A stretch of DNA of 60,152 nucleotides from Methanolacinia paynteri (GCF_000784355.1 NZ_KN360943.1:33366-93517); one strand, 5' to 3'; positions 2 through 44,553 are shown, counted from the first letter of the stretch. Made by a program: numbers and translations. Notes: generated by a model not told the origin, from the sequence alone.

Positions 2-607
2 TTCACGAAAATAATATTCTTCCTGGTGATCTCTGTAGTAATCGGCTTTGTGGGGAGTTATCTGCTTCAAAAGACAGCTTCATTCATGCTGCGGAATGCA
101 AAACGCACTGTAAACAAGAGTATCATCCGGCTGAACTGGATAGCGGTTGCATTAATGTCGTTCAGCAACGGTTCGAACGATTCCCAGAAAGAACTCGGGA
201 TAATTGTACTTGTCCTGTTCAGTGCAGGCGAGATGGCGGTTCTTGAAGTTCCCCTGTGGGCGAGGATCATATGTGCGGCCCTTCTGGGGCTCGGTACGCT
301 CAGCGGGGGATGGAGAATAATGAAAACGCTCGGGGACAGGATATTCAAACTTCATCCCCTGCATTCCTTCGATTCCCAGCTGTCATCCGGAATCTCGGTA
401 GCTCTTTCGACCAGCCTGGGTGCACCGGTCTCGTCGACCCATATCATCTCGACCTCGATTATAGGTGTCGGAGCCGCGGAAAACCCGAAGAAGGTCAAAT
501 GGTCGACAGGGCGGGATATCGTGATAGCAATGATAATGACCATCCCGGTTACAATGGTTATTTCAGGTACAATCTACTATTTCATCTCATACCTGACAGG
601 GATCTGA
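2..607 (+). CDS. pitA: PiT family inorganic phosphate permease, C-terminal part (5' cut by window edge)
   Basis: This is the C-terminal part of a sodium/proton-coupled phosphate permease in the cytoplasmic membrane. The frame is open from base 2, so the internal GTG at 26 is not the true start. Visible are a hydrophobic first segment, the family signature in which SFSNGSNDSQKELG corresponds to the second PiT repeat's GANDxQ-like motif, and several further membrane helices, ending in a hydrophobic tail. A DUF47 (PhoU-like) gene follows after only four bases, the usual Pit/DUF47 pair. The family assignment rests on the repeat motif, the SSTHIISTSIIGVG segment and the neighbour. The actual ion coupled is not visible. 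Confidence 0.88.
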   Translation, partial: FTKIIFFLVISVVIGFVGSYLLQKTASFMLRNAKRTVNKSIIRLNWIAVALMSFSNGSNDSQKELGIIVLVLFSAGEMAVLEVPLWARIICAALLGLGTLSGGWRIMKTLGDRIFKLHPLHSFDSQLSSGISVALSTSLGAPVSSTHIISTSIIGVGAAENPKKVKWSTGRDIVIAMIMTIPVTMVISGTIYYFISYLTGI

Positions 608-611
608 TAAT

Positions 612-1256
612 ATGGCACGAAAATCGAAGGTGACCGAAAAGATAAAAATCCTCGACAATATCTTTCCCCCCGAATATGATTTCAAAGGAATGCTTGAGGA
701 GCAGGCGGTAAGCACACAGAAAGGAGTGGGAACGTTCGTTTTCTGGCTCAAGGATGTCCCGCTGAAAGATCCCCACAATATCGACAAAATCGCCGCCGAA
801 GTCGACGATTTAAGGCACAACCTGGAGCAGAAGATGGTGGAGGCATTCTCGACTCCGTTTGACAGGCAGGACATGTACACCTTATCAAGGCATATGGACT
901 ATATCCTGAACCATACGAAAGAGACGGCAAGGGAGATGTATTCCTTCGGTGTTTCGCCTGACGAGGCGATTGTCAAAATCGCCGACCAGATATTCCTGGG
1001 GACGGGACTAATGGTAGATGCAGTCAGGGCGATGAACAACGAAGAATCGAAGGTTGAAGAATACATCAGGCTGGCAAGAAGGTCGATGCATGAAATCGAT
1101 GACACCTACATAGAGAGTATGGCCGAACTCCTCCATACCGAAGATCCCATGAATGCATTGAGGAAGGGAGAGATCTATCATCATTTAAGGGAGATCGAAA
1201 GAGCTCTGAGGAGGGCGGTCGATCTTCTTCACAAGGCATTTTTAGGGATGAACTGA
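612..1256 (+). CDS. DUF47 family (PhoU-like) phosphate transport accessory protein
   Basis: A 214-residue, all-helical, charged cytosolic protein with the layout of the DUF47/PhoU_div family. Members are normally encoded next to PiT permeases and are thought to regulate phosphate uptake. The start ATG lies four bases after the permease stop, so the two are co-transcribed. The sequence has heptad-like charged helices throughout and ends in LREIERALRRAVDLLHKAF, typical of the last helix of PhoU-like bundles. No signal peptide or membrane segment is present. The role in phosphate uptake is inferred from family and context. Confidence 0.85.
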   Translation: MARKSKVTEKIKILDNIFPPEYDFKGMLEEQAVSTQKGVGTFVFWLKDVPLKDPHNIDKIAAEVDDLRHNLEQKMVEAFSTPFDRQDMYTLSRHMDYILNHTKETAREMYSFGVSPDEAIVKIADQIFLGTGLMVDAVRAMNNEESKVEEYIRLARRSMHEIDDTYIESMAELLHTEDPMNALRKGEIYHHLREIERALRRAVDLLHKAFLGMN

Positions 1257-1342: not shown

Positions 1343-1355
1343 AAATAATAAATAC
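1343..1355 (+). promoter_or_regulatory. TATA-type promoter box of first Cache-HAMP sensor gene
   Basis: AAATAATAAATAC begins 40 bases before the ATG at 1383. With archaeal spacing (about 25 bases from TATA centre to start site) transcription would begin at or just before the ATG, and no Shine-Dalgarno is present, so a leaderless or near-leaderless mRNA is expected. The identical 13-mer precedes the third paralogue at 4503-4515 at nearly the same distance. Confidence 0.55.
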
Positions 1356-1382
1356 GAACGACTTTAAAAATACCCCTTACCC

Positions 1383-2819
1383 ATGGACCTTAGAAAAAAG
1401 GTAATAGTCCTTTATCTTTGCATTACGCTGATGATAATCTTGTTCATAGGAATCTCCCTCCCGATATCATTAGAAGAAGAAAATATCCATATCACCTCTG
1501 AAAAATCGATAGATAATCTAAACCATGTAGATTTTGCACTTACAAATTTTATTGATCATTCAAAATACGACGTATATGCCTTGTCACTCAATGAGAATAT
1601 AGAGACAGACGATACTTCAGGATTCTCCAATTTTTTGAATAATTCCGATAATTACGGGTATTCCTCAAACAAAACTGAACAGGAGATCATCAAAGTACTG
1701 AGGGATTTTCAATACACGCACCCTTATGTCCAGTCCGCCTACCTGGGTTACGAAAACGGGGCATTCATAAGATCACAGCAACTGGGAAATATTACGACCT
1801 ATGATCCCAGGACGAGACCGTGGTATACTCTTGCAAAAGAGAAACCCGGAGAGGTGGTAATTACACAGCCGTATATGCCGATAACATCATCCGACATAAA
1901 AATTGGAATCTCAAAGGCCGTCATCGATCAAAACGGGACAGTATCCGGTGTTGTGGGTACAGATATCACCCTGGTAAACCTGACAAATTATATCTCCGGC
2001 ATAAAAACAGGCAATGAAGAAGGAGTAATACTGACCGACCGGAACGGGGTTATTCTTGCAAGCGGGAACTCATCTCTCCTTTTTACCAACATTCAAAATA
2101 TATTGAAGGATCAGACCGATAATTTCCTGAATACGGATGAAGGCATTATTGTTATCGACGATTCATATTTCAGCTATTATACATCCCCGGAGCTTGGATG
2201 GAAGATGGGGGAGATAATTCCGTTCAGGGTATTAAACCAGCAGATTTACGAATCATTTATCCAGATCCTGATCTTCGTGGTTTTTGCACTGGTTCTTCTC
2301 AGTATAATAACCATTTTTATGATTAATCGCACAGTGATCAGGCCGATTTCAGAACTAACCGAAGTCAGCAGGAAAATTGCCGAGACCAGGGATCTCGACC
2401 AGGAGATCAATACGGATATCGGGGATGACGAGATCGCAACACTTGCCCGTTCCCTGAAATTGATGGTAGATACCATCCGCAAAGACGACCTGGAAAGGAA
2501 AGAGATGGAAAAGCAGGTCGCAATTTCAATAAAACAGATCGAGGATAACATAAGCAAATTGTCTATATTGAACGACGAGATCAGAAATCCGCTGACAGTT
2601 ATCCTCGCCTGGGCCGAGATGGTCGAGGACGAGAAGACCAAAGAATTGTTGCTTAAACAGATCTATGAGATCGATTCCAAAATTACCGATCTCGACAGGG
2701 GATGGCTGCAGTCTGAGAAGGTCTGGAAGTTCCTGCACCGGTATTACGGTATTCAGTGCGGAGAGGGAACATGCGATGTTGAGAATAACGGCAAGGAACC
2801 GGATGAAAATCCGGAATAA
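1383..2819 (+). CDS. Membrane sensor: Cache domain, HAMP, kinase-like H-box with Asp in place of His (paralogue 1 of 3)
   Basis: A 478-residue transmembrane signalling protein. TM1 is at about 7-29, followed by an extracellular Cache-type sensor (about 30-290) with the typical YDPRTRPWY segment at 140-148. TM2 lies at about 293-316, a HAMP linker follows, then a coiled region leading to NDEIRNPLTVI at about 397-407. That segment matches the dimerisation (H-box) helix of histidine kinases, but the phosphoacceptor His is Asp398. No ATPase (N, G box) domain follows, and the protein ends in a short conserved tail including GWLQSEKVWKFLHRYYGI. It is therefore not a normal histidine kinase. It is the first of three tandem paralogues. 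Ligand and output are unknown; the domain reading is strong, the signalling mode is inference. Confidence 0.82.
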   Translation: MDLRKKVIVLYLCITLMIILFIGISLPISLEEENIHITSEKSIDNLNHVDFALTNFIDHSKYDVYALSLNENIETDDTSGFSNFLNNSDNYGYSSNKTEQEIIKVLRDFQYTHPYVQSAYLGYENGAFIRSQQLGNITTYDPRTRPWYTLAKEKPGEVVITQPYMPITSSDIKIGISKAVIDQNGTVSGVVGTDITLVNLTNYISGIKTGNEEGVILTDRNGVILASGNSSLLFTNIQNILKDQTDNFLNTDEGIIVIDDSYFSYYTSPELGWKMGEIIPFRVLNQQIYESFIQILIFVVFALVLLSIITIFMINRTVIRPISELTEVSRKIAETRDLDQEINTDIGDDEIATLARSLKLMVDTIRKDDLERKEMEKQVAISIKQIEDNISKLSILNDEIRNPLTVILAWAEMVEDEKTKELLLKQIYEIDSKITDLDRGWLQSEKVWKFLHRYYGIQCGEGTCDVENNGKEPDENPE

Positions 2820-2904
2820 TTTTTTTTTATTTGTTGGCGGCAAAATCTTTCCCAATCGACAATATAATGAAATTCCGGGAAGAATAAGACTGTTCTAAAG
2901 ACAA

Positions 2905-2918
2905 GATATATATACTTT
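2905..2918 (+). promoter_or_regulatory. TATA-type promoter box of second sensor gene
   Basis: GATATATATACTTT lies about 27 bases (centre) before the GTG at 2938. No ribosome-binding site is seen, so the mRNA is probably leaderless. The T-rich run just after the previous stop (2820-2828) is a plausible archaeal terminator for paralogue 1. Confidence 0.5.
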
Positions 2919-2937
2919 ATTACCGTCCCTTAACATT

Positions 2938-4368
2938 GTGAATCTTAGAACAAAGGTTATAGTCCTGTATGTTATCATTACCCTCCTGATAATTTTGTGC
3001 ATAGGGGTGATACTGCCAATATCATTGCAGGAGCAGAACCTTAACGCAATCTCTGAGAAATCGATCGAAAAGTCGATGCATGTCGACTTTGCACTCTCCA
3101 ATTATATAAATGAAGCAAAATATGATGTCCTCGGGTTGTCGCTGAATAATATCGTCAGAACCCCCGACGACTCGGAATTTACCTGTTACCTGATCGGCCG
3201 GGACGGATCTTTTCATTTCTCTGATAGCGGAACTGAAAGGGAGATCGTTGACGTCCTGGACGGATTCCAGGTGAGCCATCCCAACGTACAGTCGGTATAC
3301 ATGGGCCGCGAGAACGGGGCGTTCGTCAGGTCCTATGCCTGGGAAAATGCTTCAGACTACGATCCCCGGTCAAGACCCTGGTATATCCTTGCGACCGAAA
3401 ACCCCGGGGAGGTTGTTATCACTGACCCGTACATCCCGATTACGACACCGTACGTTAAGATCGCGATCGCCAAGGCCCTCGTCGACAATGAAAGCAATGT
3501 CTACGGGGTAGTCGGTACGGATCTCAATCTTATGAACCTGACCGGTTATATTACCGGGATTGAAACGGACTATGAAGGTGAAATGATTCTGACCGATCGC
3601 AACGGAGTAATCATTGCCAGCAGGAATGAATCAGCCTTGTTTACGAATATCAGCGGCATACTCAATAACCAGACGGGAGCCTTTATGAACTCGGATGAAG
3701 GGGTTTTAGTTGTCGACGACGGGTATTTCGTATACTATACGTCTCCCGATCTCGGGTGGAAGATCGGGGAGATCATTCCGTTCAATGTTATCAACAGGCA
3801 GATTTACGAATCAATCCTCCAGATCCTGATCTTTGTGATCTTCGCCCTGTTTCTCCTCAGTATAATTACAATGCTTGCCCTGAACCGCACGATTCTCAGG
3901 CCACTTTCGGACCTGACCGAGGTCAGCACGAGAATTGCCGAAACCGGGGATCTCGACCAGGAGATTCGCGAGGAGAAGACGGACGGGGAGATAAGAAAAC
4001 TCGCCTGTTCGTTCAAGGCGATGGTCGAGAAGATCCGCAGCGAGGAAGAGGAGAGAAAGAATATGGAGATCCAGGTGGCCGACTCCATAAAGCAGATCGA
4101 AGGGAATATGGGAGATATGGCGATCCTGAACGACGAAATCAGGAATCCGCTGACCGTGATCGTCGCCTGGGCCGAGATGGCTGACAAGGAGATAAGGGAC
4201 AAGATCCTCGAACAGGTCGCGGTTATCGATAAGATCATAAATTCTCTCGACCGGGGCTGGCTCCAGTCCACGAAGGTCTGGAAATTCCTCAACCGCTACT
4301 ACGGGATTCACAACAGGACGGATCAGGACAACAAAAAAGAGGAGGAGGGCAAAGAAGAACACAGGTGA
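2938..4368 (+). CDS. Membrane sensor: Cache domain, HAMP, kinase-like H-box with Asp in place of His (paralogue 2 of 3)
   Basis: A 476-residue paralogue of the gene just upstream, same architecture and length: TM1 near the N-terminus, Cache sensor with YDPRSRPWYIL, TM2, HAMP, then ILNDEIRNPLTVIVAWAEM and the tail GWLQSTKVWKFLNRYYGI. As in its neighbours the H-box His is Asp and no ATPase domain follows. The start is GTG, supported by the TATA box at the right distance and by alignment with the MNLRTKV/MDLRKKV starts of the paralogues. The Cache domains differ more than the C-terminal module, suggesting different ligands feeding one kind of output. Function beyond sensing is not visible. Confidence 0.82.
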   Translation: MNLRTKVIVLYVIITLLIILCIGVILPISLQEQNLNAISEKSIEKSMHVDFALSNYINEAKYDVLGLSLNNIVRTPDDSEFTCYLIGRDGSFHFSDSGTEREIVDVLDGFQVSHPNVQSVYMGRENGAFVRSYAWENASDYDPRSRPWYILATENPGEVVITDPYIPITTPYVKIAIAKALVDNESNVYGVVGTDLNLMNLTGYITGIETDYEGEMILTDRNGVIIASRNESALFTNISGILNNQTGAFMNSDEGVLVVDDGYFVYYTSPDLGWKIGEIIPFNVINRQIYESILQILIFVIFALFLLSIITMLALNRTILRPLSDLTEVSTRIAETGDLDQEIREEKTDGEIRKLACSFKAMVEKIRSEEEERKNMEIQVADSIKQIEGNMGDMAILNDEIRNPLTVIVAWAEMADKEIRDKILEQVAVIDKIINSLDRGWLQSTKVWKFLNRYYGIHNRTDQDNKKEEEGKEEHR

Positions 4369-4383
4369 TCTGATTCGGAAAAA

Positions 4384-4468
4384 CCGGGCCGGTTGCTGTG
4401 ATTACTTCACGTTCGTGCCGAATGATTCATGAGAAGATCATGATTTCATTGAATCGGCTTTGGCCCGG
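4384..4468. other. Structured intergenic element (nested inverted repeats) between sensor paralogues 2 and 3
   Basis: A GC-only stem, CCGGGCC (4384-4390) with GGCCCGG (4462-4468), encloses a second long hairpin: GCCGA (4417-4421) with TCGGC (4454-4458), then ATGA/TCAT, then TCATGA/TCATGA around a GAAGA loop. It stands out from the AT-rich surroundings. It could be a small RNA, the terminator of paralogue 2, or a regulatory leader remnant. The TATA box of paralogue 3 lies downstream of it at 4503, so it is probably not in that gene's mRNA. Confidence 0.4.
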
Positions 4469-4502
4469 CGATATTACAGGCATTTCACCCCGGTGGTGCA
4501 AC

Positions 4503-4515
4503 AAATAATAAATAC
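4503..4515 (+). promoter_or_regulatory. TATA-type promoter box of third sensor gene
   Basis: AAATAATAAATAC, identical to the box at 1343-1355, starts 39 bases before the ATG at 4542. No Shine-Dalgarno is visible, consistent with a leaderless transcript. Confidence 0.55.
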
Positions 4516-4541
4516 ACAATTATTAATATAGAGACTTTATC

Positions 4542-5945
4542 ATGGATCTTAAAACAAAGGTCATTTTTTTATACCTCATTATAGCCGTTATTGTTTTGAT
4601 CCTGGTTGGCGTAGTCCTGCCGTCCTCGCTTGAAAAACAAAATCTCGACACAATATCCGACATATCAGTCAGAGAACTGAAATATATCGATTTTTCACTT
4701 ACAAACCTGATCAGTGAAGCGAAATACGACATCAATGAGCTTTCGGTGAAAGAGGTCGTACAGACACGTGACGATTCGGATTTTACAAGTTTCCTTAATG
4801 CATCGGAAGATACATTCGAGTATTCGATCGGGGAGACGGAACAGGATATCATCGATTTAATGCTGGAATACCAGACTACGCATCCGTATGTGAATTCGGT
4901 TTACATGGGAAGGGAGAACGGCACTTTCGTAAGGTCGCAGGAGAGGGCAAGAAACACGGCTTACGACCCGCGTGAAAGACCGTGGTATATTCTGGCAAAA
5001 GAGAATCCCGAAGAGGTTATGGTTACCGAACCGTACAGTTCGCTCACGACACCGGATATAAATCTCGGAGTCGTCAAAGCCCTCGTCGATCAGGACGGCG
5101 AGGTTTACGGGGTCATCGGAGCGGACATCACCCTGGAAAAACTGAGGGAATATATTAACTCCATAAATACGGTGGAAGAGGGGGACATCATTCTCACCGA
5201 CAGCAACGGGATAATCCTTGCGTACCGTAACTCATCATACCTTTTTACGGATATAGAAGGGATCCTGCAGAACTATACGCCTGCATTCCTGAACGAGGAG
5301 CAGGGGGTAATCTTCCTGGACGGAGACTATTTTGTATATTACACCTCGCCGGAACTTGGATGGAAGATTGGCGAGATATTCCCGGCCGAGTACATCAACC
5401 AGAAGATCAACGAATCGATCGTGAAGATCCTCGTATATGTAATAATCACACTGATTTTGCTGAGTGCACTGACCCTGCTGACACTGAATTATACAATAAT
5501 CAAACCCATCTCCGCTCTTACCGCGGTCAGCAGGAAGATTGCAGAGACTGGTGATCTCGACCAGGAGATCGATGTGAAAGGCACGGGAGAGATCGGATCG
5601 CTGGCACGTTCCTTCAAGGCGATGGTTGACAGGATAGAAACGGACGAGATCGAAAGGCTGGAGATGGAGAGGCAGATTGCAAACGCAGTGGTGCAGATAG
5701 AGGAGAATATGGGCCAGCTTGCAATTCTGAACGACGAGATCAGGAACCCCCTGACTGTCATCGTGGTTAATGCAGAACTGGCCCCGGAAGAGAACGGGGA
5801 GCCGATTCTAAACCAGGCTTATGAGATCGACAGGATTGTCAGGCAGCTTGACAGGGAATGGCTCAGTTCGGAGAAGGTCTGGTCTTTCCTTCGCCGGTAT
5901 TACGGGATCGATCACAGGAAAAACGATGACGAAGATTCGAAATGA
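4542..5945 (+). CDS. Membrane sensor: Cache domain, HAMP, kinase-like H-box with Asp in place of His (paralogue 3 of 3)
   Basis: A 467-residue third paralogue. TM1 is at the N-terminus, the Cache domain contains YDPRERPWYIL, TM2 is at about 288-312, HAMP follows with the shared SRKIAETGDLDQEI, then AILNDEIRNPLTVI and the tail EWLSSEKVWSFLRRYYGI. It has Asp at the H-box His position and lacks a catalytic ATPase domain, like the other two. The three genes are separated by 118 and 173 bases, each with its own TATA box, so they look like independently transcribed duplicates, not an operon. A T-rich run follows the stop at 5949-5955. Confidence 0.82.
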   Translation: MDLKTKVIFLYLIIAVIVLILVGVVLPSSLEKQNLDTISDISVRELKYIDFSLTNLISEAKYDINELSVKEVVQTRDDSDFTSFLNASEDTFEYSIGETEQDIIDLMLEYQTTHPYVNSVYMGRENGTFVRSQERARNTAYDPRERPWYILAKENPEEVMVTEPYSSLTTPDINLGVVKALVDQDGEVYGVIGADITLEKLREYINSINTVEEGDIILTDSNGIILAYRNSSYLFTDIEGILQNYTPAFLNEEQGVIFLDGDYFVYYTSPELGWKIGEIFPAEYINQKINESIVKILVYVIITLILLSALTLLTLNYTIIKPISALTAVSRKIAETGDLDQEIDVKGTGEIGSLARSFKAMVDRIETDEIERLEMERQIANAVVQIEENMGQLAILNDEIRNPLTVIVVNAELAPEENGEPILNQAYEIDRIVRQLDREWLSSEKVWSFLRRYYGIDHRKNDDEDSK

Positions 5946-6333
5946 ATTTTTTTCCAAGATCAGATCTCTTCTTTAAGATATTTTCAGGATTTTTTTCGTT
6001 AACAAATGTGATCCGAAAACCTTGTATGATAAAGTAAAGCTTAAATAGACCTTAAAATAAGCGAAAAACGGGTTTTTTTGCATCCACACAGAAGCCTCAG
6101 ATTCTACGATCTCCTTGTCATTCGATATGAACATCGTCCTGAAAAAACAGGGCGATGACGTGTCGTTATATCGAGGCAATTTGGGTTTTATTCCCTGTAA
6201 AAACGGCATATTCGCGTTGTTTAAATCCGACCTTCAAAACCCCGTTCAAAACGGCAAAATAAGCTCAAATTGAGGAGTTTTTGGAGGAGGATCTCATCAA
6301 AAATAAGACCTTAACAGGATATTTGGGATATTA
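5946..6333. other. Gene-free interval with a 10-bp hairpin
   Basis: No convincing gene is seen in these roughly 390 bases. The only clear structure is the inverted repeat CATCGTCCTG (6132-6141) with CAGGGCGATG (6148-6157), one G-T pair, around an A6 loop. An open frame on the minus strand (5973-6209) shows no family resemblance and no ribosome-binding site. Confidence 0.4.
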
Positions 6334-6690
6334 TCATTTCCCTTCTTTGTGAAATTCGAGGGCATTCAGTGCGAACCGGGAGTATGCAGCGGCCGGACCT
6401 CCTCCCATCTCGATTGCGACATCGATTGTCTCGAAGATCTCCTTTTCGGATGCACCCGCCAGATGAGCCTGCTGGACATGCCATTCGATGCAGGGCTCGC
6501 ATTTTGTAACGATGGATATCGACAGTGCCATGAGCTCCTTATGTTTCCGGGAAAGAGCTCCGTCCTCGAACGCCTTCTTTTCCAGCTCGGTGAAAGACCC
6601 GTAAGTGCTACAGTTCTCCAGGTACCTTGAATGAAGTTCTCTCCTGTCGACTATACTCTGGTTGATCTTTTCCCTGACGAATTTTTCCAT
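6334..6690 (-). CDS. Carboxymuconolactone decarboxylase / AhpD-like protein
   Basis: A 118-residue soluble protein of the AhpD-like family. The core shows KHKELMALSISIVTKCEPC, with the family's CxxC redox pair (CEPC), then EWHVQQAHLAGASEKEIFETIDVAIEMGGGPA, the usual His and helix pattern. Such proteins act as small thiol peroxidases or thiol-disulfide partners. The specific substrate in this organism cannot be told. It stands alone, on the strand opposite to the sensors, and its codon use resembles the rest of the genome, unlike the AT-rich genes that follow. Confidence 0.85.
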   Translation of the reverse strand: MEKFVREKINQSIVDRRELHSRYLENCSTYGSFTELEKKAFEDGALSRKHKELMALSISIVTKCEPCIEWHVQQAHLAGASEKEIFETIDVAIEMGGGPAAAYSRFALNALEFHKEGK

Positions 6691-6977: not shown

Positions 6978-8228
6978 TTAATCAAATCCCTGTAATTTTA
7001 TATAATTAGTTAATTCTTCATATTCTTTAAATAGATATTTCAAGAGAATCTTTTCAATAAGTTCCTTATGTAAATTAATCACTTTATATGTAAAAAAAGG
7101 AGTCACATTATCAGAAGAACCATTATGGATTATTTCACTTCTGATTCTATAACAATCTTTGAAGAACTTATAACATTCATTTTGGCCTTTAATGTCATCA
7201 TACAATAAAGATGCGATATTTTTAGAAACTTTTTCTGATAATCCACTCCTTTCATTATTGAGTAATAATATTTCAAATGAAGAAATAATCTTTAAAAATT
7301 TCAATTGAATGTTGAAATCAGTAAATGCATCTCCTACCCACATAACAGAATCAATAATTTTTTTATCTAAATTTGTTTTATTTTCTTTATTATAACGAAT
7401 TATAAGAGCATCAAATATTTTATCATTGAATAAATCTTGCATATTGGCTGTTCCAGATTTAATATTGATTTTTTCAGAATAAGAGGAATAATTCAGATTA
7501 GAAATATTTACATAAAATCCTCTTTTAGATTCTTCTTTTTTATTAGAGACAGGTTTTAGATAACCAAAATAACGGATAATTTTCGCTATTTCATCAAAAA
7601 ATAAATCTGCTTCTTCAATCGAAGCCGATGAAGTAAAATTCCGATTTTGTATTTCAAAGATAGGAATATCTTTATAAAAAATTCCTTTTTCTATATCTCT
7701 TCCTATACCCTTGATTATAAATTCTCGATCTTCTTCTTTTAGCTTATTAATATTTTCAGATTTCTCCATTAAATCATATATTGAGGGGTAAATAAAGCAA
7801 TTTCCAATTTTTATTATATCTGATGTCTCAATATTATAAATATGTAAAATATTTAAATAACTTTTTAACTTTAATAAATTACTAATATCCTTAACTAATT
7901 GCTCTTCATTCTTATAATCCCCATATGCATATTTTCTAGCAATTTCACTTAATTCCCCCGAAATTCCATTTCGTTGTAATTTAGAGAGAGTTCCTTTTCT
8001 TTCTTTTACAATTTTTTCATTTATCAGACTAATTTTTGAATGAAATGTTTCATTTCCATACAAACAAAATCCACCAATGAAAAATCGAGATATATAATCT
8101 CGATTATATTCACTACTTTTTGGTACAACAATTAATTCTTTTGCAGCTTCTTTTATCCCTTCTTTTACAGTTTCTTTTAATTTAATATTGAACCCTTCTT
8201 GTATGTCAGTGAATAAATTCTTCATCAC
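6978..8228 (-). CDS. Apea-like HEPN domain protein, AT-rich (probable defence gene)
   Basis: A 416-residue soluble protein. The C-terminal third carries the HEPN hallmark: LKIISSFEILLLNNERSG, then CYRIRSEIIHNGSS with the R-x4-H motif at Arg363-His368, as in Apea-like HEPN domains, which are usually metal-independent RNases in defence or toxin systems. The N-terminal 250 residues are Lys, Ile and Asn rich and unrecognised. The gene is far more AT-rich than its surroundings, pointing to recent transfer. A small membrane protein gene is encoded just upstream on the same strand. The HEPN call is fairly firm; a role in virus defence is inference. Confidence 0.7.
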   Translation of the reverse strand: MMKNLFTDIQEGFNIKLKETVKEGIKEAAKELIVVPKSSEYNRDYISRFFIGGFCLYGNETFHSKISLINEKIVKERKGTLSKLQRNGISGELSEIARKYAYGDYKNEEQLVKDISNLLKLKSYLNILHIYNIETSDIIKIGNCFIYPSIYDLMEKSENINKLKEEDREFIIKGIGRDIEKGIFYKDIPIFEIQNRNFTSSASIEEADLFFDEIAKIIRYFGYLKPVSNKKEESKRGFYVNISNLNYSSYSEKINIKSGTANMQDLFNDKIFDALIIRYNKENKTNLDKKIIDSVMWVGDAFTDFNIQLKFLKIISSFEILLLNNERSGLSEKVSKNIASLLYDDIKGQNECYKFFKDCYRIRSEIIHNGSSDNVTPFFTYKVINLHKELIEKILLKYLFKEYEELTNYIKLQGFD

Positions 8229-8809: not shown

Positions 8810-8953
8810 TTTATCCCTGTATTACCTTATACTTCACAATTGGATTTAACTTTTAATGTAATCTTTTTACAAAAAACCAAAATATTTTCCAAACAAAATA
8901 AGCTTAAAAATCACTTAAAATCAAAAAAGAACATCTTCATGTCCCAAAAAGAA

Positions 8954-9024
8954 GCCGCTGGGGGGACTTGAACCCCCGACCTGCTGATTACGAATCAGCC
9001 GCTATACCGCTAAGCCACAGCGGC
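8954..9024 (-). tRNA. tRNA-Thr (anticodon CGT)
   Basis: On the minus strand the 71 bases fold into a full cloverleaf: acceptor GCCGCTG/CAGCGGC (seven perfect pairs), D-arm GCT/AGC, anticodon stem GCTGA/TCAGC around the loop TTCGTAA giving anticodon CGT (codon ACG, threonine), and T-arm GGGGG-TTCAAGT-CCCCC. No intron is present and CCA is not encoded. It borders the AT-rich HEPN island on its 3' side. Confidence 0.96.
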
Positions 9025-9461: not shown

Positions 9462-10127
9462 ATGGATTTCGTAACTATATCGGGGATTGTCTCGTGCAAT
9501 TTCTGCCCGGTAAGATACTATCTTGAAAAGAGCCGCGAGTACGGATCCGAGAAGCCGGAATATACAATGTCGAAGCAAATCTCGTACAGGCTCGGGAGGG
9601 AGTTGTGCGAATACGAGATCTGGGACGAGATCCTGCTTGTCAACCCGGATGTCGGTGAAGATAGCTATCCGCAATTCCTGGAATGGTTAGATAAATGCAG
9701 GAATTCGGAATGGCCTATCCCCTCCGAAACCGATCTTTCAGTAAGATCGAACAGACTCGGGATTATAGGAAAGATCGACTTCCTCTATGAAGAAGACCCG
9801 AAGATCGGGATCGTCAGGGCGTCACCAGCCCCGGAGACAGGGATCTACAAATCCGACAGGATACGTTCGGCGATGGCTGCGATCTGCGCAGGAGAGACAT
9901 TCGGGTATGATATCGAAGATGTCGCTCTGCTCTATGTCCCGGACGGAAAGATGAAGATCTGTCACCCCTCGCCTTCCGACAGGAGAGCAGGACTTCGGGC
10001 GTTGTCGGTTGCAAAAAAGATAGACCGTGGATACATCCCGGAGAAGAAAAACACCGGCAGGTGCGATTACTGCTACCTGAAGGACTACTGCGATTCCGAA
10101 CCCAAAAAGCTCTCGGACCTCTTGTAA
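9462..10127 (+). CDS. Cas4-like (PD-(D/E)XK, four-cysteine) protein, not linked to CRISPR, active site apparently degenerate
   Basis: A 221-residue Cas4/DUF83-type protein. An N-terminal cysteine segment (CNFCPVRYYLEKS, about residues 12-24) and a C-terminal cluster (RCDYCYLKDYCDSE, near 202-215) match the iron-sulphur ligands of Cas4. The nuclease core keeps GKIDFLYE, but where family members have E-x-K the sequence reads IVRASPA, so the metal-binding Glu and catalytic Lys seem absent. The ATG has a GAGGGGG ribosome-binding site. No other cas gene or repeat array is in the window. A structural or DNA-binding role, not cleavage, is inferred. Confidence 0.7.
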   Translation: MDFVTISGIVSCNFCPVRYYLEKSREYGSEKPEYTMSKQISYRLGRELCEYEIWDEILLVNPDVGEDSYPQFLEWLDKCRNSEWPIPSETDLSVRSNRLGIIGKIDFLYEEDPKIGIVRASPAPETGIYKSDRIRSAMAAICAGETFGYDIEDVALLYVPDGKMKICHPSPSDRRAGLRALSVAKKIDRGYIPEKKNTGRCDYCYLKDYCDSEPKKLSDLL

Positions 10128-38583: not shown

Positions 38584-39639
38584 ATGATTGCAAATATTTT
38601 ATCAAAGATTGAAAACGGAAAAGAACCGGCAAAAAAAGAGCTGATACAGTTGTTTAATCCGGCAAATGATGAAGAATTTGCCAGACTCATTGAAACCGCC
38701 TTCAATATCAGCAGGGATAATAAAAAATTCATAAAACTTACATCTACGATACATATAACAAATCTTTGTTATATCACTCCAAAATGCAAATACTGTGGTT
38801 TTGCAGCAGGAACATCCACAGCCGGATACTACAGACCGTTCTCCAAAACCAATGAGGAGATCCTGAAATCCGCAAAAATAATCGAGGAGGCAGGAATACC
38901 GAGAGTAAGCTGCTCTGGAGCCCACGGATATCACGGAGAACAGGCAGTCAGGGCCGCTGAAATTGTAAAACAGGAAACTTCACTTGAACTTCTCGTCAAC
39001 GTCGGCTTTGATTTCGACTCAAATATATTAAGAAGACTTGAGGATCTGGGAACAGACACCGTCTGCTGCAATATTGAAACAATAAACGAAGCAATATTCA
39101 ACGATCTAAAACCCGGAGAAGTACTGGATAACCGGATCAAGGCATGCCGGATGATATCGGAATCCGGGATTGAACTCTCTTCAGGACTCCTCATCGGACT
39201 GGGGGAATCGCATGAAGACCGAATTAATCACCTGAATTTTTTACGCACGATTAAAGGGCTCGGTGAAATTCCGATTATGGGCTTTAACCCGTATAAAGGA
39301 ACACCGATGGAGAATCACCCCCCATGCCCGCTCAGGGAACAGATGATAACCATAGCGGTAACAAGAATTTTATTCCCTGATATTCGCATTACCGTCCCCA
39401 CGCCGACCATAGGGCCGGAAAATGTGAAGTATTCCCTGATGGCCGGCGCAGACAATCTTGCAACTGTAATTCCGGAGAACTACCCCGTCGAAATAAAAGG
39501 TGTTGGATCTCCAATCTGCGGGACATTGAAAGATGTTATTGCAGTTATCAGGGAGATGGGCCTCAAACCGCAGCCGGGGCCAAAAAAATACCACATGACT
39601 AAAACAATCCCGGTCGGCCATGTAGTCCGGCACGACTGA
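38584..39639 (+). CDS. hcgA: HcgA (HmdB) radical SAM enzyme of FeGP-cofactor synthesis
   Basis: 351 residues related to biotin synthase-type radical SAM enzymes but with the cluster motif CYITPKCKYC, i.e. Cys62-x5-Cys68-x2-Cys71, the unusual CX5CX2C spacing known for HcgA. Later segments VSCSGAHGYHGEQAVRAAE and SGLLIGLGESHEDRINHL fit the TIM barrel of this group. It acts early in making the guanylylpyridinol part of the iron cofactor of Hmd. First gene of hcgA-F. Confidence 0.93.
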   Translation: MIANILSKIENGKEPAKKELIQLFNPANDEEFARLIETAFNISRDNKKFIKLTSTIHITNLCYITPKCKYCGFAAGTSTAGYYRPFSKTNEEILKSAKIIEEAGIPRVSCSGAHGYHGEQAVRAAEIVKQETSLELLVNVGFDFDSNILRRLEDLGTDTVCCNIETINEAIFNDLKPGEVLDNRIKACRMISESGIELSSGLLIGLGESHEDRINHLNFLRTIKGLGEIPIMGFNPYKGTPMENHPPCPLREQMITIAVTRILFPDIRITVPTPTIGPENVKYSLMAGADNLATVIPENYPVEIKGVGSPICGTLKDVIAVIREMGLKPQPGPKKYHMTKTIPVGHVVRHD

Positions 39640-39659
39640 TCGATAAGAGAGGTGATCAG

Positions 39660-40145
39660 ATGGATTTGGAACATTTCATATCAAAAGCCTGTATTGAATC
39701 CTCAAGTGGTGTGCGCAGGGGAGACAAAATAGAGGAAACAAAGGCGATCAGGGAATATATTCTCAATTCAAAAACGATTGTGATTCCTAATTGCAATGAC
39801 GAAAAAGTTGCAGCCGTAAACGAGGTTCTGGAGGAACTGGATCTCCCAAAAGCCGGTCACCTCAATATTCACACGGACAGCTGTGACGTCAGCCGGATGC
39901 CGGCAGTAACAAAAGCGTTAATGGCGCTGGATATGACAAACGCGGACCTCATAATTGCAAGGGGAAGACTGGGAGTTCCGGGATCCGGCTCCATGCTTGT
40001 AATTGTGGACTGCAAAGGAAGACTGCTTTCCGCTTCTATCTCCCCGTCGCATCATATTCACGGGAAAACGGTCTATCAGGCGGTGAAAGACGAGATGACG
40101 GATGCCCTTTCAAGAATAGGCTTCGACATAAGCGGTAGGGGGTAG
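39660..40145 (+). CDS. hcgB: HcgB guanylyltransferase of FeGP-cofactor synthesis
   Basis: 161 residues of the DUF3236 family, with CNDEKVAAVNEVLEELDLP and ADLIIARGRLGVPGSGSMLV followed by ISPSHHIHGKTV. HcgB joins GMP from GTP to the pyridinol hydroxyl, giving guanylylpyridinol. A strong GAGGTGATCAG ribosome-binding site precedes ATG 39660, 21 bases after hcgA. Co-transcribed with hcgA and hcgC. Confidence 0.93.
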   Translation: MDLEHFISKACIESSSGVRRGDKIEETKAIREYILNSKTIVIPNCNDEKVAAVNEVLEELDLPKAGHLNIHTDSCDVSRMPAVTKALMALDMTNADLIIARGRLGVPGSGSMLVIVDCKGRLLSASISPSHHIHGKTVYQAVKDEMTDALSRIGFDISGRG

Positions 40146-40152
40146 CAAATTC

Positions 40153-40947
40153 ATGACGAAAAATCATTCTGAATACGGTATTACCAGGACAGTAAGGACT
40201 TTTTTTTCAAATTATACAATCTGTAACATTGTCGATGGAATCACGGACAAAAAATCAGATGCCCTGCTCCGGTGGATGAACGAAAATGGGATCTGCCCGG
40301 AGAACGTCCTTGTAATAGGTGCATACCTTACAGGAGCCGGTCTTTCAAAAGCTCTCTCAAAAAAATCAGAAGTAACTGTTCTCGATATAAATCCCGAAAT
40401 TCAAAATCTGCTTGATCCCGGTGTAACTTTCAGTTGCAGTATTGATGAGGCCGTATGCAGGAATTACGACATGATAATAGACACTTCAGGATTCGGCGGG
40501 ATAGATCCCGACGACCTGTTGAAACTGAACAGACCTGACGTATTAATTGTTGAAAATCCCTGTTCTGAAGGCAGCGATAATTTCCTGAACAGGTTTAACA
40601 GGAGTGTTCAGCTTTTAAGAAGTTCAAAAGCTGAAAATAAAGGGATTTTATGGACATCTGGACTCAATTCCAAAACATCGGGAACCATGACACTCACAAT
40701 AGATACTCTTCGCAGATCGATGAATGACGCCAATAAAATCAACGGAGTATTATACAGCACTACGAATATGGAATTCTTCGAGAGAATACTTTTCAAGGAA
40801 AAAAATCCGGATAAATTCCTGAAAACCCTGGATAAAAAAGCACTGGCAGTATCTTCTCTCGCTGAGACCGACTGCGACGAGATCATTGACAACAATCTCA
40901 AAAAAATTAATTCAACTATTCTGGATTTTAGAGGTGATTACAATTAA
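40153..40947 (+). CDS. hcgC: HcgC pyridinol C-methyltransferase of FeGP-cofactor synthesis
   Basis: 264 residues of the DUF1188 family. It has a Rossmann-like SAM-binding segment NVLVIGAYLTGAGLSKALS with the strand-2 acidic end VTVLDINPEI, and later ENKGILWTSGLNSKTSGTMTL. HcgC is the SAM-dependent methyltransferase that adds a methyl group to the pyridinol ring. GGGGG upstream of ATG 40153 is the ribosome-binding site. Its last codons overlap the start region of hcgD. Confidence 0.9.
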   Translation: MTKNHSEYGITRTVRTFFSNYTICNIVDGITDKKSDALLRWMNENGICPENVLVIGAYLTGAGLSKALSKKSEVTVLDINPEIQNLLDPGVTFSCSIDEAVCRNYDMIIDTSGFGGIDPDDLLKLNRPDVLIVENPCSEGSDNFLNRFNRSVQLLRSSKAENKGILWTSGLNSKTSGTMTLTIDTLRRSMNDANKINGVLYSTTNMEFFERILFKEKNPDKFLKTLDKKALAVSSLAETDCDEIIDNNLKKINSTILDFRGDYN

Positions 40948-41698
40948 AGCAAAATTACTTTTCTGGAAGATAGAAAGAAAGGTTCCATTGTCACTGGCGT
41001 TCCCCTATGATACCGTCGGGTATCTCGGTACAGAATCTGCAGAAAATCTTGATGTCAACAAAATCCTTATGATGATGGATTATATTCCGGTTCAAAAGGG
41101 GATTGAAATAGATTATGATGCCTATGATCTTCTTGTTCTTCATCATCCGCCCGTAACAAAGCCCAAAATTCCTTCATACGTAATCCACTCAAACTGGGAC
41201 ATCGTTTCCGGCGGTGCATGCGATGCACTTGCCGACTGCCTGAATATTACCGTTCATGACGTTTTTGATAAGAAAGCCAGGCTCGGAAGGATAGGAACAT
41301 TAGAACGAGGGCCTGTTCCGCTGCCTGAATTCTGCAAAACCGTTAAGGAAAAACTTTCACTAAATACACTCAGGGTCGTAAATTTCGATGAAAATACAGA
41401 GATTAACAAAATCTGTTTAATACCGGGTTTTGGTCTTAATCCAAAATACATAGAGATGGCACATGAAGAAGGTGCAGATCTTTATCTGTCGGGTGATCTT
41501 ACACATCCCGGGGCCATACTTGCAAAAAATTCAGGACTCGTGCTTATAGATGCAACCCATCACGCTACTGAAGTCCCGGGATTATACAAGCTGCGGGAAC
41601 TGATCTCCGAGCTTGGGATTGAAACTGAGATCATAGATACAAAAGTTCCGTGGGAGTATTATACCGGAAATAGAGAGAATATTCAAAATTTGTTATAA
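40934..41698 (+). CDS. hcgD: HcgD, NIF3-like iron-binding protein of FeGP-cofactor synthesis
   Basis: 254 residues if started at GTG 40934, overlapping the hcgC stop. NIF3 family motifs: DAYDLLVLHHPPV (metal-ligand His pair), HSNWDIVSGGACDALAD, EEGADLYLSGDLTHP and DATHHATEVPG. HcgD is thought to supply iron. The start is uncertain: GAGGTGA at 40931 is a perfect ribosome-binding site that would place translation at ATT 40943 (IKAKLL..., resembling the MKAK start of relatives), while GTG 40934 lies inside that site. Confidence 0.9.
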   Translation: MITIKAKLLFWKIERKVPLSLAFPYDTVGYLGTESAENLDVNKILMMMDYIPVQKGIEIDYDAYDLLVLHHPPVTKPKIPSYVIHSNWDIVSGGACDALADCLNITVHDVFDKKARLGRIGTLERGPVPLPEFCKTVKEKLSLNTLRVVNFDENTEINKICLIPGFGLNPKYIEMAHEEGADLYLSGDLTHPGAILAKNSGLVLIDATHHATEVPGLYKLRELISELGIETEIIDTKVPWEYYTGNRENIQNLL

Positions 41699-41717
41699 GA
41701 TACCGGGTGATGAGAGA

Positions 41718-42374
41718 ATGTCACTGGAAAAAGAAGAGAACACTGAAGATATGGAGAAAAAAAAAGTCCCGCGGGGAGAAGTTACTCTGATCGGTCTCGG
41801 GAGGCTTGGCTTCAGAACCGGACTTAACCTCATCGAAGTTCACCGGGGCGGACCTGAAAGAATAACTGCAATCGACGGTCAGAAGATCTCCGACGACGAT
41901 CTTGTATTCAAAATCCTGGGAGCAAAACCCGGTGAATACAAGGTTGATTTCTTTGAAAAACTTGCAGGGCCGGACAACTCAAAAAAAGTTAAAGGTATAA
42001 GCCGGAATATTTCAGGAGATAATCTTGACCTGATACGCGGGGACGTAGTATGCATTGAGATTGCCGGAGGGAATACCCTGCCTTTAACGGCCGGAATAAT
42101 AAAAAAAGCTCATGAAAAAGGGATATCTACAATCAGCACGATGGGCGTTTTCGGGCTGGGACACGAGGAGATAAAGGCAACCGATATCAGTGTAGGAGAT
42201 CCCGGCAATCCCGTTGTAAGCGGTCTTAGAGAATACGGGATCGATGAAAATCATCTCCTTGTCGGAACGGGAAAGCTGATCAGGGACTGGGAACCTGTAA
42301 CACCGGCAATTCTCGAGAAAACAGCTGTCGTTATGACTTCGGAGATATTGAAAACCCTGAAGGATAAAAGATGA
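41718..42374 (+). CDS. hcgE: HcgE, E1/ThiF-like adenylyltransferase of FeGP-cofactor synthesis
   Basis: 218 residues with the nucleotide-binding start EVTLIGLGRLGFRTGLNLIE and RITAIDGQKISDDDL of ubiquitin-activating E1/ThiF-like enzymes. HcgE adenylylates the carboxyl group of guanylylpyridinol with ATP so that HcgF can take it. GGGTGATGAGAGA precedes the ATG. The first 18 residues are charged and probably unstructured. Its stop overlaps the hcgF ATG (ATGA). Confidence 0.92.
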   Translation: MSLEKEENTEDMEKKKVPRGEVTLIGLGRLGFRTGLNLIEVHRGGPERITAIDGQKISDDDLVFKILGAKPGEYKVDFFEKLAGPDNSKKVKGISRNISGDNLDLIRGDVVCIEIAGGNTLPLTAGIIKKAHEKGISTISTMGVFGLGHEEIKATDISVGDPGNPVVSGLREYGIDENHLLVGTGKLIRDWEPVTPAILEKTAVVMTSEILKTLKDKR

Positions 42375-42865
42375 TCAGGATAGCCACCGCCGAATGTTTC
42401 ACTCATGGCAGAATCGGTCTGGAGATCCACGCCATCTCACGCGGATATTATATGAACATCAGCCATACGCTGAACTTTGAACCGTCACGGCTTTCATTAA
42501 TTGCATCCCTCTTTATACCGACTCTTTCAGGAGTGAGAAGCATACTCGGATTCGAACCGCTTGAACCTGACGATCTGCTGGACGGGATCAAGGTATACAA
42601 TGATGAAAAGGATAAAATTATGGCCGTAAAAATGGCGGAAGCCGTCAGATCAATAACAGGAGCTGATATCGGAATCGGCAGTACTGCAGGGATCGGAAAA
42701 GGAGCTGTTGCCGTTGCAGATGAAAGAACCGTACTTACCGGCTTCTCCGAGGTTTATGCAGATCTCAGAACATCCGATGCCGACATAATTATGAAGAGAC
42801 AGGAATCCGGTATAGAAGAAGCCTTTGTACTCCTTGAAAAAATTTTAATTGAAAACTATTCCTAA
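42371..42865 (+). CDS. hcgF: HcgF, thioester-forming protein of FeGP-cofactor synthesis
   Basis: 164 residues beginning MIRIATAECFTHGRIG. The Cys9 that takes the activated guanylylpyridinol carboxyl as a thioester in characterised HcgF is present. Later ITGADIGIGSTAGIGKGAVAV is typical. It is the last gene of the compact hcgA-F operon and starts by overlap with hcgE. An AT-rich gap of 170 bases with its own TATA box separates it from hcgG. Confidence 0.92.
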   Translation: MIRIATAECFTHGRIGLEIHAISRGYYMNISHTLNFEPSRLSLIASLFIPTLSGVRSILGFEPLEPDDLLDGIKVYNDEKDKIMAVKMAEAVRSITGADIGIGSTAGIGKGAVAVADERTVLTGFSEVYADLRTSDADIIMKRQESGIEEAFVLLEKILIENYS

Positions 42866-43035
42866 AATCATCCTTTAAATTAACCTGCATAATTGCAGAG
42901 TATTTTAACTGAAATCTGCTATATCCGGTCATAAGTATGTACAATTATTTTTTAATACAATTTTGATAAAACATATGAATAAGTAAATTAAATTTTATAT
43001 ATTATCTTACTTTAGAGAAATAATCAGGTGTAAAA

Positions 43036-44553
43036 ATGTATGATTTAGTTAAAAAGGCCGTTCTCGATCCCTACGCAGCGTGGGAATTATCAAAACTGGA
43101 GAAGGATCCTGCTGAAATTGTCGAAGCCGTCTCACGGCTCGACCGCGATGAGGCTATGAAACTGGGAATGAACTTCAAAAGATTCCCGCTCGGGTGCGAT
43201 CTCACCGAAATACTGGTCGGAACATGTGCTTCCGATCTCGATAAAATAGATATTCTGGGCAACAGCATCCTCTCCGATTCAATAGGTGCATCTATTCACG
43301 TTTGCGCATATGCCTTTGCGGATATCGCCGAGGCAAACGGAATGAGAGGGATCGATCTGTTCAGGGAAGTAAGGGAAAACACCGAGGTTCCTCTCGACCT
43401 CGATCATTTCGGAAAATTCGGCCCGATGAGATTCCCGAAGGACATAACCGGATGCTGGGGTCAGTGTTACAACGAAGGGCCACCTTTCGACGGATGTCCC
43501 AGGGACAGGATACATTCCAGGCTCATAGATAAGGAGGAAGATGCACTGGGCGAAAGGGACGAATGGATTAAACTCTCATCGTCAGTTGCAATAAACCTCA
43601 CATGCATACAGGGCGCCGAAGGGCACGCTGCGCCTCTGGACGAAGCCATTGAAGTTGCGCAGCTCGGAAAAAAATATGGCAAGGGAATAGAGGCGATCAT
43701 GTTTGTCGGCGACGGGTATGAAGATCTCATCAAAGGTTTTACAACTGCAATAGATATGGGGGTTGACGTGTTTGTAATCGAAGGCGGACCTTTCAACCTG
43801 GCTGAAAACCGGCTTGATGCATTTGCTCGTGCCATTGCCATGGCAAGAATTCTTGTACCGGGGAAAATTGTAGTAACCAACGGAGCCTATGAAGACGAAT
43901 GCCGTGTAGGTCTCCGTGCAGGATTAAATGGAATAATTACAGGATTCCCAAAAAATCATCACGGTTATATGTGCGGCTATTCGCCCGGTACGGCAAGAAG
44001 GGGAAAATTCGGTCTCCCCAGGATAATGCGAATAATAAAGGAAGAAGTTAAGGAGGACCTTACAAAGGCGCCAATCCGGAAAGACGAACTCGAATCGCTT
44101 GCGCGTGCTGTAAAAGTTGTTGATCCAGCCAATGTATATCCACGAAAAATAGGTTATGCACCCGTAGGAGACGCACACTGGGTGTGCCTGCCGGCGACTC
44201 CGATCTACGAAAGAGTAACTGTTAAAAGAACAGTGCATGACATAAGAAAAATGGCCGAAGAAGGAAAGATCGGGGATAGCATTGCACTTCTCGGCGGCAG
44301 ATTTGCATCATGGGTCATTGCAAAGGAGCTTGACAGTTATGTTGACCAGATCACAATCAGCGATATCGATACATGGGTTGAAAAAATTTCTGTGGAAAAT
44401 CTTCAGTCCGAATTGAAGGCAAATATATACACGGGAAATTCAGATGACAATGCCACATATAAAAACTCCGAAACATCAATTATTTGCACAACAATCCCCT
44501 CCATCTCAAATAAAATTTCAAAAAATCTGAGTGATGCCATAACTCTCATTTAA
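43036..44553 (+). CDS. hcgG: HcgG (HmdC), iron-ligand synthesis protein of FeGP-cofactor assembly
   Basis: 505 residues. The N-terminal two thirds contain the HmdC signatures HFGKFGPMRFPKDITGCWGQ, EAIMFVGDGYEDLIKGF, GFPKNHHGYMCGYSPGTARR; the C-terminal part resembles a fibrillarin-like nucleotide-binding domain (IALLGGRFASWVIAKEL). HcgG takes part in late cofactor assembly, including the carbonyl/acyl iron ligands in current models. CAGGTG precedes the ATG and TTTATATATTATC at about 42992 is the TATA box. Single-gene unit between hcgF and hmd. Confidence 0.92.
   Translation: MYDLVKKAVLDPYAAWELSKLEKDPAEIVEAVSRLDRDEAMKLGMNFKRFPLGCDLTEILVGTCASDLDKIDILGNSILSDSIGASIHVCAYAFADIAEANGMRGIDLFREVRENTEVPLDLDHFGKFGPMRFPKDITGCWGQCYNEGPPFDGCPRDRIHSRLIDKEEDALGERDEWIKLSSSVAINLTCIQGAEGHAAPLDEAIEVAQLGKKYGKGIEAIMFVGDGYEDLIKGFTTAIDMGVDVFVIEGGPFNLAENRLDAFARAIAMARILVPGKIVVTNGAYEDECRVGLRAGLNGIITGFPKNHHGYMCGYSPGTARRGKFGLPRIMRIIKEEVKEDLTKAPIRKDELESLARAVKVVDPANVYPRKIGYAPVGDAHWVCLPATPIYERVTVKRTVHDIRKMAEEGKIGDSIALLGGRFASWVIAKELDSYVDQITISDIDTWVEKISVENLQSELKANIYTGNSDDNATYKNSETSIICTTIPSISNKISKNLSDAITLI

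Follow-up and report, generated by a model that had tools for sequence, protein, structure and literature searches.

Proteins that join a sensor to a HisKA-like domain lacking HATPase are already known in archaea as a class. Galperin et al. (2018) listed them as 'HisKA, no HATPase' or 'Nonenzymatic HK-like proteins' (HK, histidine kinase) in Archaeoglobi and Methanomicrobia, and named Methanolacinia petrolearia and Archaeoglobus fulgidus as carriers; that survey states that a His is conserved, suggests phosphatase activity, and reports that most of these proteins are misannotated as histidine kinases (PMC5847659). The P2CS label for such proteins is 'possible incomplete histidine kinase'. Here we describe three tandem genes of this kind in a 60,152-nucleotide stretch of Methanolacinia paynteri DNA (GCF_000784355.1 NZ_KN360943.1:33366-93517), the whole of which is called the window. 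Their products end in a module, termed the D-module, that has Asp at the position of the phosphoacceptor His. The best reading, to which we give a probability of about 0.5, is that the module would dephosphorylate a receiver under the control of the receptor; this reading draws on residue patterns and on analogy with studied kinases. The new elements are the Asp instead of His, the residue pattern, the operon and the fusion origin, none of which was found in the searchable literature, a body that leaves most subscription journals outside.

How do these proteins compare with the published class? The window proteins and the wider family share with it an N-terminal sensor, a C-terminal HisKA-like domain and the absence of HATPase. 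The distribution also matches: across the class, 171 of 232 genomes, from 35 of 40 genera, carry the module, with a maximum of 23 copies per genome, and the module is found in a second class (a second family of the phylum), plus once in a 4-Mb genome. We take the second family to be Archaeoglobaceae (Archaeoglobi). All loci with organism names belong to Methanomicrobiales or to unassigned Euryarchaeota. By contrast, the published conserved His is Asp in every module found by profile search, and the published statement seems at odds with the sequences of the family. The paper gives seven genes for M. petrolearia, against 13-15 matches in the sister genome G111, and describes neither an operon nor a fusion origin.

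The D-module can also be compared with the HisKA DHp domains of EnvZ, CrdS and HK853. Common to both are a helical hairpin, the motif (H/D)-x-I-(R/K)-N-P-L and, at +4, the Asn or Thr required for phosphatase activity. The module differs in having Asp for His, in not keeping the +1 acid, in lacking an ATPase domain, and in carrying a conserved tail, GW..SEK(I/V)..FL..HYG, where the catalytic domain would start. The phosphatase site of CheZ is D-x3-Q, and there too an acidic residue lies on a helix four positions before an amide residue. The same D-x3-Q is found in the phosphatase site of NarX, of the HisKA_3 type (PMC3510030). However, the module has Asn rather than Gln, no homology to CheZ is claimed, and the activity of the module is putative.

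Three paralogous receptors

The products of the three open reading frames (ORFs; Table 1) are paralogues, with an identity of 53-60% from end to end. A preliminary description of positions 1343-5945 was right in placing three tandem ORFs there; the first begins at 1383, not 1343. Pfam finds dCache_1 (E 5e-15 to 9e-18) and HAMP (E 5e-10 to 5e-14) in all of them, while HisKA, at 23.8-26.4 bits, falls slightly under the cut-off of 26.9, and HATPase_c has no Pfam match in any of the three. Each C-terminus consists of ILNDEIRNPLTVI and the tail (G/E)WLxSxKVWxFLxRYYGI, with Asp, not His, in the phosphoacceptor column. The proteins are paralogous membrane receptors, comprising an extracytoplasmic double-Cache domain of the amino-acid-binding type, a HAMP domain and a kinase-dead, HisKA-derived DHp module. 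Both Pfam and the conserved C-termini bear out the earlier view of Cache-HAMP sensors with Asp for His and no ATPase domain; with the acceptor His and the ATPase domain both absent, the output module is, as had been said, incapable of autophosphorylation in the usual way. AlphaFold2 predicts a two-helix hairpin for the ORF2 module (mean pLDDT 90.7), and its full-length model of a window protein, built from an alignment of three rows only, is uninformative (pLDDT 39).

Is the output module conserved and the sensory part different, as first described? This overstates the case: identity is 52-59% for the Cache region, 59-64% for HAMP and 64-67% for the C-terminal module, and the proteins are paralogous throughout. 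The related idea of three different ligands is also unsupported. The dCache_1AA motif of PctA consists of Y121, R126, W128, Y129, Y144 and D173 (PMC10104139). In a HMMER alignment to PctA, the six residues (Y-R-W-Y-Y-D) are invariant across the three ORFs, and the amino-acid-binding motif is thus complete in all three Cache domains. The window proteins are in this respect like PctA and PctB, but their output is the D-module and not a chemotaxis, kinase or cyclase output; the ligand is predicted from the motif.

Conservation of Asp and Asn in the D-module

The D-module is a large, widespread archaeal family that lacks the ATPase domain and has a near-universal Asp in place of the acceptor His. 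A profile search found that the module recurs across archaea with Asp conserved: Asp(0) and Asn(+4) are both present in 72 of 72 profile-found copies. The only rows with His in that search, seven in number, score weakly and belong to complete kinases of the haloarchaeal type, in which an ATPase domain follows. Module copies with His would not have escaped the search, because the change from D to H costs merely 4.2 bits in the profile. With a DNA pattern permitting Asp, His, Asn or Tyr at the acceptor column, all matches listed have Asp, except one with Asn. The Asp counts cited here come from the profile searches and this permissive pattern; a contig scan with the pattern LND[EQH]IRNP is biased at the D column. 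When 150 genomes of the order were searched for a His version of the motif, 15 matches were obtained and nine were recovered as reading frames; these nine include two ordinary kinases, with the motif HDMRNPL, but not one module. Asp(0) and Asn(+4) are the sole invariant columns in 110 non-redundant module copies, an alignment in which about half of the rows come from a scan whose pattern fixes both residues and in which the evidential weight rests on the profile-found rows, archaeoglobal ones among them. Divergent modules at two loci (L175 and L176, in genomes G193 and G194) have FSDRIRNPLQVIKGYAF and are without the GW..SEK tail conserved elsewhere; perhaps they form a subfamily of their own.

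The module aligns without gaps to haloarchaeal full kinases, its Asp facing their His (AILNDEIRNPL versus AILAHDIRNPL), and the profile places the Asp opposite the phosphoacceptor His of EnvZ in a weak match (E 0.037). The alignment with the RHDILN kinases of the host genome is weak; it spans 28 columns and is interrupted by a gap at the His. Because the latter is short and gapped, the correspondence of His and Asp rests on the haloarchaeal kinases and EnvZ.

Which functions would such a residue pattern allow? In 23 kinase DHp domains of the host genome, which were chosen by an HD..N pattern and represent the common type rather than all kinases, His(0), Asp(+1) and Asn(+4) are invariant. In the 72 profile-found modules, the +1 residue varies (E/H/Q/R/K/S/A/G). 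In CrdS, which has the motif HEIKNP, the +1 acid is required only for the kinase reaction and Asn(+4) only for the phosphatase reaction; moreover, an H-to-A mutant retains most of the phosphatase activity, with a half-life of 2.6 min compared to 53.5 min for CrdA~P alone (PMC3510030). By analogy, the best reading is that the module has lost the residues that the kinase reaction needs and has kept the residue that dephosphorylation needs, and it is for this reason that a sensor-controlled response-regulator phosphatase or binding module is preferred.

The +1 residue is His in 24 of the 72 copies and in no window protein; our guess is that this frequent His is perhaps what Galperin et al. took for the conserved one. 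On the assumption of a conserved His, a phosphoacceptor or phosphotransfer role was proposed for the class in that work (PMC5847659). The module would then be a phosphotransfer station, with the Asp or the +1 His taking phosphate from kinases or receivers. This is very unlikely, given that no module copy has His at the acceptor column, that the +1 His is present in only a third of the profile-found copies, and that no receiver-like acidic pocket surrounds the Asp. An Asp that accepts phosphate, as raised in the preliminary description, is less likely because the residue occupies the His position in a helix, lacks the acidic pocket of receivers, and has an invariant Asn as its partner at +4, the arrangement of HisKA phosphatase sites.

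Partners and putative function of the module

The host genome (2.79 Mb, 46 contigs) contains 12 module copies by single-sequence search and 13 by profile, which sit behind PAS, GAF, solute-binding, receiver and Cache sensors. All 12 of 12 module reading frames stop 0-28 residues past the module, and none of the 42 places with HATPase_c coincides with a module gene. In a set of 60 full-length module proteins, Pfam finds PAS in most, a receiver domain (REC) of their own in 12, HAMP in nine, CHASE4 in eight and HATPase_c in two; dCache is found in the window protein only. The module is C-terminal almost always. The two proteins with HATPase_c are Methanospirillum giants (L098:494-5065 and L099:1287-6761) in which an internal D-module precedes PAS domains and, according to hidden Markov model searches, an ATPase domain; among the module proteins seen, these alone also contain a kinase domain.

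Among 79 module loci with long flanks, a receiver gene adjoins the module gene in 16 and a kinase gene in six, so that neighbours are more often receivers than kinases. At several loci, a same-strand, overlapping receiver gene lies immediately downstream of the module gene, and in four the product is REC-MetOD2 (Table 1); further cases in three genomes of the host's own family were deduced from coordinates. MetOD2 is a domain of unknown function, and REC-MetOD2 and the D-module are a candidate cognate pair. In one genus (g17) receivers and modules are both absent, but this is a single clade and is not used as evidence.

If the module does dephosphorylate a receiver, ligand binding would act through HAMP on a dimeric helical hairpin, which would dock the phosphorylated receiver and promote hydrolysis of its phospho-Asp. 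The invariant Asn(+4) would position the water, and the Asp at the His position might serve as a base or salt-bridge residue, comparable with D-x3-Q of CheZ and NarX. The sensors would then lower, and not raise, the phosphorylation of a response regulator, the target being one among about 28 receivers of the host. A broader proposal is put forward more tentatively, at somewhat less than even odds: the D-modules would be a large family of monofunctional, sensor-controlled response-regulator phosphatases with an Asp-x3-Asn pair, derived from HisKA by replacement of the His, and would provide Methanomicrobiales and Archaeoglobi with a dephosphorylating arm of two-component signalling in the form of separate proteins; the triplet would be a case in which kinase output was swapped for its opposite under the same sensor.

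Several observations weigh against dephosphorylation. The phosphatase activity of EnvZ and HK853 is stimulated by ATP or ADP and by the ATP lid (PMC7005713), and the isolated EnvZ DHp domain had no phosphatase activity in mammalian cells (PMC8971529). Full kinases keep Asn(+4) too, and for this reason its conservation alone cannot separate a phosphatase from a role in fold or docking. Against the result with the isolated EnvZ domain, Zhu et al. 2000, to go by their title, reportedly saw activity without the catalytic domain. A Foldseek search of the module hairpin against the PDB gave no match at E <= 0.001; it is uninformative because long two-helix hairpins resemble many unrelated coiled coils.

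The main rival is receiver docking without catalysis: the ligand would control a module that captures receivers, or phosphorylated receivers, and keeps them sequestered or localised. It draws on the same residue conservation and receiver association, and a catalytically dead EnvZ cut OmpR-driven output as much as presumed phosphatases did, apparently by sequestration (PMC8971529). We consider it rather unlikely all the same: docking poorly explains why invariance is confined to two columns, that of the phosphatase residue Asn(+4) and that of the His position, with its acidic residue. Next comes a hetero-dimeric regulator, also raised in the preliminary description, which would pair with complete kinases and raise or lower their activity. 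There are precedents in RocA, which binds CsrS (PMC6635533), and in the ChrS pseudokinase, which acts in a strain whose ChrS and HrrS heterodimerise (PMC9491836), and about 42 HATPase_c genes in the host genome could supply partners. It is nevertheless improbable, since most host kinases have the other DHp type (RHDILN), to which the profile match is weak and gapped, and since kinase neighbours are the rarer ones; neighbours and fusions both point to receivers.

Taken with the kinase-receiver-module operons described below, the residue pattern makes an annotation puzzle testable: does the module remove phosphate from the adjoining receiver? If so, methanogens would own a large set of ligand-controlled phosphatases alongside their kinases. 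In that case, nature would also have run an experiment in the triplet, by exchanging the kinase output of one sensor for its opposite.

Origin of the triplet and other features

The anatomy and the evolution of the triplet are real and well supported. The sister genome (G111; 2,843,290 bases) has an orthologous triplet in the same position, preceded by genes for a kinase, a PiT permease and a DUF47 protein. Between the two triplets, dN/dS is 0.09-0.12 for the whole gene and 0.02-0.22 for the module. When both genomes are set aside, residues 1-376 find their best matches in complete kinases of five others (G112, G115, G106, G120 and G118), with dCache-HAMP-HisKA-HATPase architecture and the H-box SHELRTPL. 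In five of five genomes the kinase gene opens an operon, followed by a gene for a CheY-like receiver (123-127 amino acids) and by a gene for a REC-(GAF)-PAS-D-module protein, with ends that mostly overlap. At locus L227, for example, such an operon with clear partners lies on the minus strand (kinase 4464-6410, receiver 4108-4479, REC-PAS-module protein 2942-4138). The sensor tree joins the triplet to the G112 kinase (support 100/100), and the module tree joins it to the third gene of the G112 operon (SH-aLRT 97). The junction lies just past HAMP, where LARSFKAMV on the upstream side is kinase-like and ERKEME.Q on the downstream side is like the PAS-module linker of the third operon gene.

Judging from these comparisons, the triplet goes back to an ancestral operon in which the sensor half of the kinase became joined to the module, encoded by the second gene after it. 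The simplest history is that the kinase core, the receiver and the REC-PAS part were deleted, that the sensor was thereby welded to the module, and that two duplications followed. One further point against dephosphorylation appears here: the CheY-like receiver of the operon is without a clear orthologue in the host and sister genomes, the best identity being 35-37%, versus 61-63% between operons. The triplet must therefore act on another receiver, if any.

Are these genes decayed, functionless kinases instead? The preliminary description named a His or an ATPase domain in close relatives as the sign of decay, and on this check the answer is divided. The close relatives of the sensor half are indeed complete kinases, with both His and ATPase domain. 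The module itself carries neither in its relatives: it is conserved across two classes, is under purifying selection, and descends, according to its tree, from a separate module family rather than from a lost kinase core, and the syntenic triplet has been retained in the sister genome. Decay is hardly credible on this evidence, in agreement with the preliminary description; for the module, purifying selection and the module tree led us to reject it.

Table 1. Positions of the receptor genes and of their parts in the window, and loci or genomes with REC-MetOD2 genes
Feature	Position	Strand	Description
ORF1	1383..2819	+	dCache_1-HAMP-D-module receptor, 478 aa (amino acids)
ORF2	2938..4368	+	dCache_1-HAMP-D-module receptor, 476 aa, GTG start
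ORF3	4542..5945	+	dCache_1-HAMP-D-module receptor, 467 aa
ORF1 extracytoplasmic Cache region	1473..2252	+	HMMER alignment to PctA; dCache_1AA motif Y140 R145 W147 Y148 Y164 D194
ORF2 extracytoplasmic Cache region	3028..3807	+	same six dCache_1AA motif residues as ORF1
ORF3 extracytoplasmic Cache region	4632..5411	+	same six dCache_1AA motif residues as ORF1
ORF1 fusion junction	about 2484..2501	+	between HAMP end (kinase-like upstream) and 'ERKEMEKQ' linker; from sequence comparison and sensor/module trees
ORF2 fusion junction equivalent	~4039-4059	+	
ORF3 fusion junction equivalent	~5643-5660	+	
ORF1 D-module	2502..2753	+	two-helix DHp-like hairpin and conserved tail; Asp398 codon 2574-2576, Asn402 codon 2586-2588
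ORF2 D-module	4060..4308	+	Asp399 codon 4132-4134, Asn403 codon 4144-4146; AlphaFold2 hairpin
ORF3 D-module	5661..5909	+	Asp398 codon 5733-5735, Asn402 codon 5745-5747
REC-MetOD2 genes directly downstream of D-module genes	L054, L059, L068, L103; G113, G119, G120		

The region ahead of the triplet (L197:5087-6841 upstream of the window, then window 26-1256) includes a complete kinase with a degenerate N-terminal receiver domain. A PiT phosphate permease gene and a DUF47/PhoU-like gene follow this kinase, and the order before the triplet is kept in the sister genome.

Elsewhere in the window, a tRNA-Thr gene (8953-9024) is flanked by genes for two proteins with no Pfam match, of 416 amino acids (6978-8228, - strand) and 221 amino acids (9462-10127, + strand); this stretch was possibly acquired recently. 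Further along, a radical SAM/BATS protein (38584-39639) and a fibrillarin-family protein of FeGP cofactor biosynthesis (43036-44553, Pfam E 4e-275) are encoded in a cluster at positions 38584-44553; it resembles the hcg cluster, which serves the [Fe]-hydrogenase cofactor.

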